The notes below the pieces were generated by a model that ran no database searches, had not been told where the DNA came from, and was given only the letters and a program-made list of their open reading frames with translations. From a bacterium BMS3Abin14 (lineage in GTDB: Bacteria > BMS3Abin14): a stretch of DNA of 17,217 nt. Positions 10,507-14,685 of the stretch are shown here, one piece after another (positions within the stretch are counted from its first letter, which is position 1; each line of letters begins with the position of its first letter). The DNA is taken from contig BDTG01000037.1 in the NCBI GenBank assembly GCA_002897695.1, positions 1-17,217 of the forward strand, read 5' to 3'. A program made the translations under genes and the position numbers.

Positions 10507-10656
10507 TTACCACATCGTCACTTCGTTTTGCATATCTTCGAAGTAACGTCCGGGCGTGACGAAGGTGGACCCGTCACGGCGGTGGGCTATTCTCACGACA
10601 ATAACAAGAGCCACTTCGTCATTGATTCGGTAGAGAATGCGATATTTTCCCTGGCG
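10507..10656 (-). pseudogene. 3' remnant of a RelE/ParE-type toxin gene
   Basis: The last ~49 codons of a 89-codon chimeric frame read GKYRILYRINDEVALVIVVRIAHRRD, the closing strands of RelE/ParE toxins (…GKYRIxYRI…VxVVxIxHRxxxY). The N-terminal half is missing: at 10657 the frame switches directly into a fragment of an IS4-type transposase gene. No antitoxin gene is recognisable next to it. A product made from the chimera would lack the front of the RelE fold, so this is treated as a broken gene. Confidence 0.7.
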
Positions 10657-10820
10657 AGCCGCGAGCAAATAGACGCATAAAGCAACCCATATTTGACTCT
10701 TGACGGCATTGGGGGAGGTCCCGAGGAACGCATTTATTCGTAAATGTTGTTTGATCCATTTGAAGAACAGCTCCACTTGCCAGCGCTGCTTGTAGATCGC
10801 AGCGACCGTAAGTGCCTCAA
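10657..10820 (-). mobile_element. Internal fragment of an IS4-family transposase gene
   Basis: These 164 bases match 13681-13844 of the intact insertion sequence in this window without gaps and with eight mismatches (about 95% identity). They encode transposase residues ~281-335, including the Y-R-E-K signature (Y290, R293, E297, K304). Neither IS end is present: the similarity begins and ends inside the transposase gene. It is therefore a leftover of a second, older or diverged, copy of the same family. Confidence 0.88.
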
Positions 10821-10873: not shown

Positions 10874-10918
10874 ATTCTATTTCCCCCCCTCAGGATAGAG
10901 GCGGGGAAAATAGAATCC
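10874..10918 (-). terminator. Long hairpin covering the last codons of fic, possible terminator or mRNA 3' structure
   Basis: On the minus strand ATTCTATTTTCCCC is followed by its near-perfect reverse complement, GGGGAAATAGAAT, with one bulged T; the inner bases (GCCTC/GAGGG) add further pairs, giving about 17-18 pairs around a short loop. The stop codon of fic (TAG at 10877-10879) lies inside the right arm. After the stem comes GAAAATCGG and not a U-run, so it is not a standard rho-independent terminator. It is more likely a stabilising 3' structure. Confidence 0.4.
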
Positions 10919-12085
10919 GACAGCCTTGATTGGAAACGCCGCCCTGAGCGGTCCCTTGTCGGAATCAGATTGCAACAGGTTCTTATCGAGGAGCTGTTTC
11001 ACAACCCGCCGCCCCGTCCGCTCGGCTTTGCCTGTGAGCAGGGCCGCTTCGCCGCGGGAAACCCGGCCACGAAGAAACACTTGCTGTAAAACCTTCCCGG
11101 ACCCCCTGGGCAATTCATCCATCAGGACCTGTTGCTGCGCGTAAGCCCCTATCCTTTTCTGCATCCCATCGAGATCCAGCAGGTTCCGCATAAAATCCAC
11201 CTGATCCAGCATTGTTTCGAGGAAGAACCTGCAGAAAAGGACAAGGCCCTGTTCCGAGAGATTTCCCCTGCCATCCAGATCTCCACGGCGGTGCTCGTCC
11301 GCTTCCGCCAGGGCGGTGAGATACTCGTTCCGGCGGCGGGCAAGACCCCTTGAAACAGCCCACATCCCATGCCCATCCAAACCAGCCTTGATGAGGTAGG
11401 CGTGGGTGAAGATCCTGGCAACCCTCCCGTTCCCGTCCAGAAAGGGATGGATCCAGGCCAGCCTGTGGTGAGAGGCCGCAGCTGCTATTACCTTGTTTAC
11501 GCTGTCCAGACCGGCAGGATTGTAGGCTTCTGAGAAACGGGCAAGAAAGAGCGTCAACGAGGAAGCTGCGGGAGCCAGGTGCCTTCCCACCTCCACCCCA
11601 TCATCTCGTAGTTTGCCGGGCCTGACGATGCGTGTTGCCCCATCGGGCGCTTTGACCTCTTTAAATTCTTCCGGCAAATGGTCGTAGAACTGTCTGTGAA
11701 TCAGGCAGAGAAATTCCCTCGAACAGATGTCAGTCTCAGGTTCCATCTCGAGGAGCTGTTCAGTAAACTTCTGGACCTCGATGTGCGCAATGCTCTCCAT
11801 CTGAAGCGCGCGCTTTGCAGGATCTCCTGAATAATCTTTTGCCAGGGCTTTTTCTATATCCACCGGGTGAGTGTCATGACCTTCGATAAGATTTGAGTAG
11901 AAGCTGTTCATGGCGCGCACCAGCTCCCCTATACCTTTGGCGGTTTCGCGATGAACAGAAGATCCCAGCGCTGCTGAACGACGGACCACATCGAGTGCAA
12001 GGTCTCGCAGTTCTCCGCTCGAATCCGGCGGGAGCATGGGCTCCATCTGGGAGGGGATGGTGTAAAGGACTCCATTTTGGGTCAT
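10877..12085 (-). CDS. fic: Fic domain protein (class II, self-inhibited) with C-terminal winged-helix-like segment
   Basis: This 402-residue protein is a likely AMP-transferase that modifies a target protein's hydroxyl side chain using ATP. The catalytic Fic motif HPFLDGNGRVAR is complete at 213-224 (His213, Asp217, Asn219, Arg224). An N-terminal inhibitory helix carries the class II motif S-N-L-I-E-G at 64-69, in which Glu68 would block productive ATP binding until released. The last ~90 residues (RVSRGEAALLTGKAERTGRRVVKQLLDKNLLQ) look like a winged helix-turn-helix, common in this Fic subfamily and suggesting DNA binding or autoregulation. The ATG at 12085 has GAGGA eight bases upstream. 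A promoter and 12-bp direct repeats lie just upstream. No separate antitoxin gene is seen, as expected for class II. Confidence 0.92.
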   Translation of the reverse strand: MTQNGVLYTIPSQMEPMLPPDSSGELRDLALDVVRRSAALGSSVHRETAKGIGELVRAMNSFYSNLIEGHDTHPVDIEKALAKDYSGDPAKRALQMESIAHIEVQKFTEQLLEMEPETDICSREFLCLIHRQFYDHLPEEFKEVKAPDGATRIVRPGKLRDDGVEVGRHLAPAASSLTLFLARFSEAYNPAGLDSVNKVIAAAASHHRLAWIHPFLDGNGRVARIFTHAYLIKAGLDGHGMWAVSRGLARRRNEYLTALAEADEHRRGDLDGRGNLSEQGLVLFCRFFLETMLDQVDFMRNLLDLDGMQKRIGAYAQQQVLMDELPRGSGKVLQQVFLRGRVSRGEAALLTGKAERTGRRVVKQLLDKNLLQSDSDKGPLRAAFPIKAVGFYFPRLYPEGGK

Positions 12086-12121: not shown

Positions 12122-12150
12122 GACATATCATACACGAGAATATGTGTCAA
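12122..12150 (-). promoter_or_regulatory. Sigma-70-type promoter of fic
   Basis: On the minus strand TTGACA (12145-12150) is followed after 17 bases by TATGTC (12122-12127), a weak -10 match (three of six). The transcript would start near 12115, about 30 bases before the fic start codon. A pair of 12-bp repeats begins three bases upstream of the -35 box, a usual place for an activator or repressor. Confidence 0.5.
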
Positions 12151-12152
12151 TA

Positions 12153-12176
12153 ATTGGCCGATGTATTTGCCGATCT
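12153..12176. repeat. First pair of 12-bp direct repeats upstream of fic
   Basis: ATTGGCCGATGT and ATTTGCCGATCT follow each other with no gap (two mismatches between them). They match the second pair at 12261-12284 to a consensus WTTGGCCGATMT, and lie immediately upstream of the predicted -35 box of fic. The 12-bp spacing is close to a helical turn, as expected for two protein subunits bound side by side on one face of the DNA. Confidence 0.75.
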
Positions 12177-12260
12177 ATTAAGCACACATTGAAGGAAATC
12201 TCTTGTTATTTCAGATAAATAAAGGCTGGAAAGATCTTATAGCTTAAATATACCCGGTTT

Positions 12261-12284
12261 TTTGGCCGATATATTGGCCGATCT
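12261..12284. repeat. Second pair of 12-bp direct repeats upstream of fic
   Basis: TTTGGCCGATAT and ATTGGCCGATCT are contiguous and copy the first pair, which begins exactly 108 bp away (nine repeat lengths, about ten helical turns). Two spaced tandem pairs suggest a looping or cooperative operator rather than chance. Confidence 0.75.
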
Positions 12285-12343: not shown

Positions 12344-12373
12344 GTGTACAGGTACACCGGTGCACTAGTGCAC
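12344..12373. repeat. Four 8-bp units forming two adjacent 14-bp palindromes
   Basis: The units GTGTACAG, GTACACCG, GTGCACTA and GTGCACTT follow each other at an exact 8-bp period. Units one and two make the palindrome GTGTAC-AG-GTACAC, and units three and four make GTGCAC-TA-GTGCAC, with CG between. This looks like a binding array for a dimeric regulator. No regulator gene is adjacent apart from Fic itself and the HicA-like operon. Confidence 0.7.
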
Positions 12374-12490: not shown

Positions 12491-12808
12491 TTAGGGAGGC
12501 CAATTATGAAAGCGGAACTTTATAAAAGTCCTTTTTTTTGTAAGGTGAAGATTGTATTCTTCTGCTGTCATAGGACACTCAAGCAAATCTCTTGCTTCTT
12601 GCACGCGGTCTAGCCTGAGTTGCTTGCGAATCTGCGTAAGAAGATCACCTGAAATATCTCTCATCTTTCGCGTGTGAGAGATTTTTGTAAATATATCCGT
12701 CAGTTTGCCATTATGTCGATGCCTAAAAAATATGTGATGACCTTGAGGGTCTCTCTCGAAACCTTTTTTTTGAAGGCTCGCTTCCATATCTTTTCTATCT
12801 ACGGGCAT
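12491..12808 (-). CDS. 105-aa HicA-like small basic protein
   Basis: The small protein begins with a pattern like HicA toxins: RKDMEASLQKKGFERDPQ, then GHHIFFRHR, resembling the GSH-type motif whose histidine is catalytic in HicA ribonucleases (His24/His25 region), followed by a beta-strand and THxRKM-like helix (ISHTRKMRD). The rest (RKQLRLDRVQEARDLLECP) extends beyond the ~60 residues of typical HicA and ends with a basic, aromatic tail. The resemblance is in the dsRBD-like alpha-beta-beta-beta-alpha order, not in overall similarity. No HicB-like antitoxin is adjacent; the 148-aa gene lies five bases upstream and the start has no clear Shine-Dalgarno, which suggests coupled translation. Function: uncertain; an RNA-binding or RNase role is inferred. 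Confidence 0.65.
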   Translation of the reverse strand: MPVDRKDMEASLQKKGFERDPQGHHIFFRHRHNGKLTDIFTKISHTRKMRDISGDLLTQIRKQLRLDRVQEARDLLECPMTAEEYNLHLTKKRTFIKFRFHNWPP

Positions 12809-12813
12809 GATGA

Positions 12814-13260
12814 CTATTCGAGTTTGAATGAACCAAGAAACACTTCTTTTAATCGAACAGCTTCCCCAAGTAGTTGCTCTACTGGAGTATCTTGGTAATG
12901 TTCAAACTGGCACACGACTTGAACACTAAAATCACTAATTGCGTCTTGGTCGGTATCACCAGCGGCAAAAATACTTAATGCTTCATTTTCCGCAAAATAT
13001 AGTCGTTCACCTCGCCTTACTTCGACTTCAATGGGTTGGCTTGAGGTTACAGTTGTTACGGGTGCGTCATTATCCTTTTTGGCAACAAACTTCCAGAGAG
13101 GATAACGAACAATTGCAGTATGCCGCCATGCGGCTGCAGGGGAATCTGAAAAAGCGCCTAATGCTCCCTCCACTGTAGAAGTAACAACTCTCCGCCAACC
13201 AGAAAGCGGTGGATCATAATCTTGTGCACGCTCTTCTTGAAAGGCAAGCGCACTTTTCAT
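12814..13260 (-). CDS. Uncharacterised 148-aa protein, middle gene of a three-gene operon
   Basis: I do not recognise this protein. It has no signal peptide or membrane segment and is acidic overall. The first ~50 residues have Trp/Arg-rich segments (PLSGWRRVVTSTVEG and AAWRHTAIVRYPLWKFVAKK); the middle looks beta-rich (PIEVEVRRGERLYFAENEALSIFAAGDTDQDAISDFSVQV written here in two parts, 75-95 and 96-115). The end (TPVEQLLGEAVRLKEVFLG) is helical. Its ATG overlaps the TGA of the upstream truncated gene (ATGA) and its stop is five bases from the HicA-like gene, so all three were made from one coupled mRNA. Base composition is AT-richer than the neighbouring core genes, consistent with acquired DNA. 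Confidence 0.7.
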   Translation of the reverse strand: MKSALAFQEERAQDYDPPLSGWRRVVTSTVEGALGAFSDSPAAAWRHTAIVRYPLWKFVAKKDNDAPVTTVTSSQPIEVEVRRGERLYFAENEALSIFAAGDTDQDAISDFSVQVVCQFEHYQDTPVEQLLGEAVRLKEVFLGSFKLE

Positions 13261-13508: not shown

Positions 13509-13519
13509 TGTCCGGTTAA
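13509..13519 (+). repeat. Left inverted repeat of the IS
   Basis: TGTCCGGTTAA. It matches the right end in ten of eleven positions. The transposase stop codon (TAA on the minus strand) is at 13516-13518, within this repeat. Confidence 0.75.
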
Positions 13520-14685
13520 TAGTTGAACAAATTCAACTGGTTACGGTCAGGCAGGTCTGGGGTTTGCTTGAGCGCGGCTGTAACTAGTGAATAAATAGGC
13601 TTTTTCTCAAACAAATTGACCTCCAGAATCTGTAGAAAAGTGTAGAGCGTACATGGGACTTCGAGCTGTTTCTTGGTAATAGCCACGAGCAAATAGACGC
13701 ATAAAGCAACCCATATTTGACTCTTGACGGCATTGGGTGAGGTCCCGAGGAACGCTTTTATTCGTAAATGTTGTTTGATCCATTTGAAGAACAGCTCCAC
13801 TTGCCAGCGCTGTTTGTAGATCGCGGCGACCGTTGGTGCCGCAATCTTAAAATTGTTAGTGAGAAATACCAATCGTTTGTTTCGGTCTTTATCAACGTAG
13901 CTGACCCGGCGCAAAGGCTCTGGGTAGCCCTTCTTAGATTTTTGGGTGACCAGTGTAACAATCTGGTCGGCTCGAATGCCAGCCTCTTTGTTCTTGGGCA
14001 AAGAGTAGCGCCGCTGATAACGCAGATTGTTTTTGGCTCGCACTACGAAAAAAGCGCCCTGCAGATGAATCGCATAGAGCCGGGCGAAGTCGACGTAGCC
14101 GCGGTCCATGGTATAGATGGCCTCTCCGATGACAGGCATTGCGTCAAGCATCTTGACGTCATGCACCTTGCCGGTTGTAACGGCCACAAATGTAGGAATT
14201 GGGCCACGCAAATCAATCTGCGTATGCATCTTAACAGCAGCCTTGGCCTTGCGGAATTCAGCCCAAGGGAACACAGAGAGACACAGATCAATGGTCGTCG
14301 AATCAAAAGCAAACAATGGCTGTCGCAACTCAATGGCCAAAGGTTCATTCTGGTAGAGCCGTTGTGCTATGCCAATTAACACTTGCCCAAAATCTTGAAA
14401 AACACGCCAGTCGCGACGTTCATTGGCATCGGCAAGAGTGGACCGGGCAATTTTACCTCGAAAGCCGATATGGTAAAGTTTTTCCCGATGAGAGTTCAAG
14501 CACGTTTCGATGTCCCTTAAACTCTCGCGACCCGCTAACTGGGCATATGCCAGACAAAGAAACTGGTCAAATGTGGAGAAGCCTCTGGTGCCATGCTCAC
14601 CCCAATATCGTTGGACGCAGCAGTTGAATTCGTACCGAGGAAGAAACTGAAGTAGTTGCCTGAAGACAGACTGACCAACGTTCAT
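13516..14685 (-). CDS. IS4-family DDE transposase (DUF4372 N-terminus)
   Basis: This 389-residue transposase moves the surrounding IS by cut-and-paste. The N-terminal ~75 residues (MNVGQSVFRQLLQFLPRYEF) match the DUF4372 segment typical of the ISPepr1-like group of IS4. The DDE catalytic core is complete: Asp128 in FAFDSTTIDL, Asp194 in YTMDRGYVDF and Glu297 in YKQRWQVELFFKWIK, where Y290, R293, E297 and K304 make the Y-(2)-R-(3)-E-(6)-K signature. The C-terminal tail (PDLPDRNQLNLFNY) is normal for the group. The gene is full length with no frameshift, and the start codon at 14685 has a strong Shine-Dalgarno AAGGAGGG, so the element may still be active. Confidence 0.95.
   Translation of the reverse strand: MNVGQSVFRQLLQFLPRYEFNCCVQRYWGEHGTRGFSTFDQFLCLAYAQLAGRESLRDIETCLNSHREKLYHIGFRGKIARSTLADANERRDWRVFQDFGQVLIGIAQRLYQNEPLAIELRQPLFAFDSTTIDLCLSVFPWAEFRKAKAAVKMHTQIDLRGPIPTFVAVTTGKVHDVKMLDAMPVIGEAIYTMDRGYVDFARLYAIHLQGAFFVVRAKNNLRYQRRYSLPKNKEAGIRADQIVTLVTQKSKKGYPEPLRRVSYVDKDRNKRLVFLTNNFKIAAPTVAAIYKQRWQVELFFKWIKQHLRIKAFLGTSPNAVKSQIWVALCVYLLVAITKKQLEVPCTLYTFLQILEVNLFEKKPIYSLVTAALKQTPDLPDRNQLNLFNY

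Follow-up and report, generated by a model that had tools for sequence, protein, structure and literature searches.

Class II Fic proteins are said to represent about 80% of all Fic proteins, and their control is almost wholly unexplored (PMC9755527). CccR of Yersinia pseudotuberculosis, a Fic-HTH protein, uses its HTH domain to repress the promoter of its own gene; the dimer is needed for this repression, and the recognition helices of the dimer are located 70 A apart (PMC9755527). CbFic2 of Coxiella burnetii (PDB 8cil), a class II Fic protein with a C-terminal HTH, has a high affinity for random DNA and no defined operator, and its binding to DNA acts as a switch between the AMPylation and deAMPylation activities (PMC10628234). 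SoFic of Shewanella oneidensis (SO_4266, PDB 3eqx), consisting of a Fic domain and a C-terminal winged helix, was deposited as a possible transcriptional regulator. A search of the open-licence literature for Fic operators with direct repeats or looping yielded only CccR and CbFic2, and no description of looping or helical phasing was found for CccR.

The stretch of DNA analysed here (17,217 nucleotides, called the window below) carries on its minus strand a fic gene (10877-12085) encoding a protein of 402 amino acids, which matches Pfam family PF02661 with an E value of 8e-16. The FIC motif HxFx(D/E)GNGRxxR is matched by HPFLDGNGRVAR at residues 213-224 (11414-11449, minus strand). N-terminal to it, in the same chain, the inhibitory (S/T)xxxE(G/N) motif is present as S64-NLIEG69 (11879-11896, minus strand), the columns of which are invariant or nearly so in 46 sequences. 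By these motifs the protein is a class II Fic AMP-transferase, in agreement with the first-pass annotation of this DNA. An AlphaFold prediction, with alignment rows taken from the window and the contig loci only, gave a model with pLDDT 93 and pTM 0.91. The C-terminal segment, previously described as winged-helix-like, forms a winged helix in this confident model, with a predicted recognition helix at residues 355-367 (ERTGRRVVKQLLD; codons at 10985-11023, minus strand) that includes Arg356, Arg359 and Arg360.

The closest solved full-length structure to the window protein is CccR (PDB 7xux), with a Z score of 32.1 over 348 residues and an rmsd of 3.0 A. Both proteins are of class II and share the N-terminal inhibitory motif, the C-terminal HTH and the overall fold, at 22% sequence identity; CccR is in addition secreted by a type VI system (PMC9755527). 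CbFic2 has a DUF4172 N-terminus without a match in the window protein, and its full-length superposition is poor (rmsd 10.6 A). The identity with SoFic is 16-18%; the PADLOC model for SoFic matches the window protein with an E value of 6e-28, and with the NCBIfam model NF046030 (SoFic) the window protein scores 36.4 bits, far below the cut-off of 550 bits. Assignment to a two-gene type II toxin-antitoxin module (FicTA, Phd-Doc) was rejected, the inhibitory motif being located in cis and no recurrent neighbour being present in 74 loci.

Upstream of the fic gene, two contiguous pairs of 12-bp direct repeats are found, giving four boxes, all on the minus strand. The distal cluster consists of a first repeat at 12273-12284 (ATTGGCCGATCT) and a second repeat at 12261-12272 (TTTGGCCGATAT), and the proximal cluster of a first repeat at 12165-12176 (ATTTGCCGATCT) and a second repeat at 12153-12164 (ATTGGCCGATGT). 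On the fic strand the boxes thus read, from far to near, AGATCGGCCAAT ATATCGGCCAAA ... AGATCGGCAAAT ACATCGGCCAAT. Compared with the consensus proposed in the first-pass annotation, two boxes are exact and two carry one mismatch. The two 24-mers (12153-12176 and 12261-12284) are identical at 21 of 24 bases and start exactly 108 bp apart; the coordinates, spacing and consensus reported earlier were all correct. The four-copy score of the 401-bp region was 61 out of a maximum of 72, while 400 dinucleotide-preserving shuffles reached at most 40. Within the 2.28-Mb assembly the exact tandem pair occurs at these two places only, with one further match carrying 2 mismatches.

Two bases beyond the end of the proximal pair lies a perfect TTGACA hexamer (12145-12150, minus strand), a possible -35 element belonging to the best promoter found by PWM. 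It is followed after 17 bp by TATGTC (12122-12127, minus strand), a possible but weak -10 element. In the alignment, the sister species G001 has TGGACA-N17-TATGTT at this place. The -35 box that had been predicted beside the nearer pair is present as a hexamer, but the -10 element that should go with it is poor, and a consensus scan reported no promoter at TTGACA/TATGTC in the window. For these two reasons the promoter call is uncertain, and TTGACA-N17-TATGTC can be regarded as a plausible but unproven fic promoter. In the genus of the window's source, the promoter appears from the sequence to be situated downstream of both clusters, just past the proximal pair. Most relatives have their best promoter-like sequence inside the interval that separates the clusters, in A+T-rich DNA 5-30 bp upstream of the proximal cluster, which itself overlies the start of transcription or translation; in many of them the proximal pair is immediately adjacent to the start codon. 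Such a location over the start is typical of a repressor site.

Some other features of the window were noted as well. Between fic and a HicA-like gene, at 12344-12373, four GTRYAC hexamers (GTGTAC, GTACAC, GTGCAC, GTGCAC) follow each other at exact 8-bp steps and form overlapping perfect or near-perfect palindromes (GTGCACTAGTGCAC); this looks like a second, unrelated protein-binding array. The HicA-like toxin gene, located in the region 12491-13260 (minus strand), falls just under the Pfam cut-off, and a 148-aa frame is found upstream of it; this frame matched no family, and no HicB was recognised. On the other side of fic, an 89-aa frame at 10507-10776 (minus strand) is probably a chimeric remnant: it fuses in frame the C-terminal end of an IS4 transposase and the C-terminal part of a ParE-like toxin. 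A full transposase copy belonging to the same family is present at 13516-14685.

The boxes were then compared across the relatives of the gene, collected by profile search as the best 80 genomic contigs and 8 viral contigs. Among viral contigs, a search with the single sequence found no Fic relatives, and the alignment search found 8. A period test assuming no motif was applied, in which an 8-mer with three G/C had to be found again, with no more than one mismatch, at the offset under test. A tandem repeat with a period of exactly 12 was detected in 82 of the 91 Fic-family upstream regions, against an expectation among 91 regions of 6.4 from shuffles, 7 from coding DNA and 16 from downstream controls; no other period in these regions was comparable. 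For 25 distant Fic genes from other families, period 12 was seen in five, which is not above the other periods there. The family members with upstream regions belong to Desulfobacterota, Proteobacteria, Verrucomicrobia, Cyanobacteria, Bacteroidota, Acidobacteria and others, and also include plasmids and phages. Boxes, mostly arranged as two clusters, are found upstream of fic relatives in more than 10 phyla, and an iterated matrix gave the half-site R-A-[T/C]-C-G-G-C-[A/C]-A.

The presence of the repeats upstream of orthologous fic genes, on which the first-pass annotation had made its reading depend, could also be seen in the nearest relatives. The boxes are present with changed letters in the sister species (L005, protein 82% identical) and in L006 and L008, which belong to the same family as the window's source; one example among these three is ACCGGCCATATTACCGGCCA, occurring twice, 111 bp apart. 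Plasmid homologues with 43-48% identity carry CCGGCAA pairs, the second of which abuts the start codon, a Melainabacteria relative has GATCGCTGAAAA boxes and a phage copy of the family has ATTGACATTAAT boxes. No recognisable boxes were found in L046 and L127, and only single ones in L048. In four loci on plasmids of the Roseobacter group and Rhizobium (L436, L437, L438, L440) the period is 13 bp instead of 12 bp, e.g. GATCGGCAACCAAGATCGGCAA. In L114 and L121 (Bacteroidota, phage) the distal region contains at least five tandem ACCGGAAT boxes at 12 bp, indicating that clusters can expand. The tandem pair alone (ATCGGCAA-N4-ATCGGCAA, CCGGCAA-N4-ACCGGCAA and a loose double pair) was discarded as a search key. 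In 386 genomes and in viral contigs it recovered mostly coding repeats and no intact fic gene, and it is unspecific because coding DNA often contains repeats of these letters with period 12 (I-G-K-x codons).

For the identification of the protein that reads the boxes, operators were re-called with positions 6 and 7 masked, and the calling could therefore not favour the association described here. Arg360 is present in 23 of 85 proteins, and without exception the operators of these proteins carry C at position 7 (boxes CGG[C/A]C). Among the 62 proteins with another residue, 61 have no C at this position, and the exception (L444) is a misread register. The agreement of 84/85 corresponds to a phi of 0.97, compared to 0.64 for the next best of all residues and columns, and residue 360 falls inside the predicted recognition helix. 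Recognition of the G in a C-G pair by a facing arginine is common among DNA-binding proteins. Gly328, which ranked beside Arg360 as a partner of position 7 by mutual-information z-score, was rejected, as Arg360 had no equal when absolute information was used, nor in the test with masked positions. For operator positions 2, 6 and 8, no convincing partner residue was found in the recognition helix. In a phylogeny from which the winged helix had been left out, the residue-360 trait changed at least six times, and well-supported branches provided four independent pairs, all agreeing (sign test p 0.125). Taken alone, this phylogenetic count is modest; with only four well-supported pairs, the independent switches that are certain are few, and the covariation draws its support from these and from the large contrast between columns.

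Other variants of the recognition helix point in the same direction. Three proteins without Arg356 (L095, L104, L047) have boxes lacking CGGC, and the 12-bp repeat is still present in L095 and L104, e.g. GATCGCTGAAAA. These three loci, together with L073, L074 and L128, have other letters in place of the CGGC core but for the most part keep the arrangement of the repeats, and most of them have altered residues at positions 356, 359 or 360. Among the genes neighbouring fic in 74 loci no partner recurs, fic being the sole recurrent gene. Only one double cluster was met without an intact fic, on viral contig L196 (4800-4975, minus strand), where an intact double operator precedes a fic gene cut to its first ~27 codons, and the operator has outlived its gene. 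Based on the winged helix, the Arg360 covariation, the Arg356 variants, the lack of a conserved neighbour and the L196 remnant, the operator-binding protein is very probably Fic itself, which was one of the two binders initially suggested.

In most family promoters the start-to-start distances of the two clusters fall into classes of 67-69, 77-79, 86-92, 98-103 (few) and 108-112 bp, which lie about one helical turn apart. Several distances of 103 and 122-123 bp come from three-box clusters, for which a 12-bp shift of register gives 91 and 110-111 bp. The vector length at ~10.5 bp was 0.72 for 61 loci, and the maximum in 2000 random sets was 0.41. After related proteins had been collapsed to one locus per cluster, the highest vector length for periods of 9.5-11.5 was 0.77 at 60% identity (22 clusters), 0.73 at 70% (46 clusters) and 0.74 at 80% (57 clusters); with a jitter of up to 5 bp, none out of 3000 sets matched the phasing of the collapsed sets. 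Distances changing by whole helical turns are a classical sign of proteins facing each other in a fixed way. The DNA looping that had been suggested from the spacing in the window alone is consequently supported at the sequence level by the quantisation of the inter-cluster distance, also after collapsing. The distances are centred on half-integral turns, d = (n+1/2) x 10.5 (phase ~0.5). A simple planar loop does not explain this half-turn offset of equivalent bases, and a bridging dimer on direct repeats need not require integral turns.

These results make it likely that the winged helix of Fic binds the boxes of its own gene and that the distal and proximal clusters are bridged by the Fic dimer into a repression loop; autorepression through such a loop appears to be the best-supported mechanism. 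For each 12-bp box (A-T/C-C-G-G-C-C/A-A on the fic strand), recognition would be by a single Fic monomer through its winged helix, and Arg360 would select C over A at position 7. Fic on the distal pair and Fic on the proximal pair would be joined through the Fic dimer, closing a loop of 67-112 bp that would contain the promoter in most of the family. In the window's genus, where the promoter appears to follow immediately after the proximal pair, the -35 element would be crowded by the complex. The outcome would be a negative feedback keeping a potentially toxic AMP-transferase at a low level. The joining of clusters by Fic dimers is favoured by the distance of 70 A between the CccR helices, by the autorepression of CccR, the nearest relative to have been characterised, and by the repressor-like position of the proximal cluster. 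If the family dimerises like CccR, 70 A would be too wide for two adjacent 12-bp boxes and would suit the joining of DNA segments.

Binding of Fic without a loop is an unlikely alternative. The distal cluster would then be an activator or co-repressor site phased to RNA polymerase, and the proximal cluster would block the promoter alone. The promoter-like sequences located mostly upstream of the proximal cluster fit this explanation, as they place the distal cluster ~50-100 bp upstream of the start, and activator sites at such distances show one-turn steps, as class I activator sites do. However, a cluster distance of 108-111 bp is retained in the window's genus and L008 although the promoter of the genus seems to lie downstream of both clusters, which therefore appear to be phased to each other. 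The wide separation of the CccR recognition helices (PMC9755527) also speaks for bridging, provided that dimerisation is alike. It is considerably less probable that an unlinked regulator binds the boxes and that Fic is only its target. Such a regulator is compatible with the fact that Fic binding is deduced from sequence, but the operator sequence tracks a single position in the recognition helix of Fic, and the surroundings of fic contain no conserved regulator gene. In addition, fic is accompanied by the boxes across phyla, also on plasmids and phages, and within the window's genome the pair is found nowhere but at fic.

Even less weight can be given to an action of the boxes in the mRNA or in translation initiation instead of in double-stranded DNA. 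The abutment of the proximal pair on the start codon in many relatives would agree with it, but in most relatives the distal cluster precedes the predicted promoter, and helical quantisation and covariation with a winged helix are properties of DNA. That the repeats are chance, simple-sequence or a mobile-element remnant can practically be dismissed: the abundance of similar period-12 repeats in coding DNA is outweighed by the shuffle test in the window and by the retention of boxes in 82 of 91 family members, and this conservation excludes chance. Autorepression by looped Fic hence remains the preferred explanation. A possible extension of it, which is doubtful at present, is that loop-bound Fic is held in one catalytic state (e.g. 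deAMPylating or silent, cf. CbFic2 on DNA), and that release by a target or stress would both turn the enzyme on and allow more synthesis. If true, one protein would act as sensor, enzyme and repressor in a family of more than 10 phyla.

An operator shared and conserved so deeply would make self-limited expression a part of the control of a whole family of Fic proteins, and it offers concrete DNA for assays. The Arg360-C7 code predicts the operators of unseen members and permits a clean swap of residue and base, and the one-turn distance steps represent a natural looping experiment repeated across bacteria. The operator of CccR is one inverted repeat, AGATAATCAT-N26-ATGATAATCT, with a 46-nt footprint (PMC9755527), whereas the window has 12-bp direct repeats in two clusters; an inverted repeat with a 26-bp spacer of the CccR type was not found in the fic operator of the window. 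In the open-licence literature, where absence is weak evidence, neither the Arg360 code nor a Fic operator that is double, phased or built of direct repeats was found to be described, and the combination of a direct-repeat, double and phased operator with a one-residue specificity code may therefore be new. Autorepression by a Fic-HTH protein (CccR) and the alteration of Fic catalysis by DNA binding (CbFic2) are already known. Among looping repressors, GalR acts at the gal operon through operators that flank the promoter ~110 bp apart, with a repressor loop that depends on helical phase; the gal operators are palindromes and GalR is a repressor without an enzymatic domain. Operator distances in steps of one helical turn, as expected of a looping repressor, are found in the Fic family as well.
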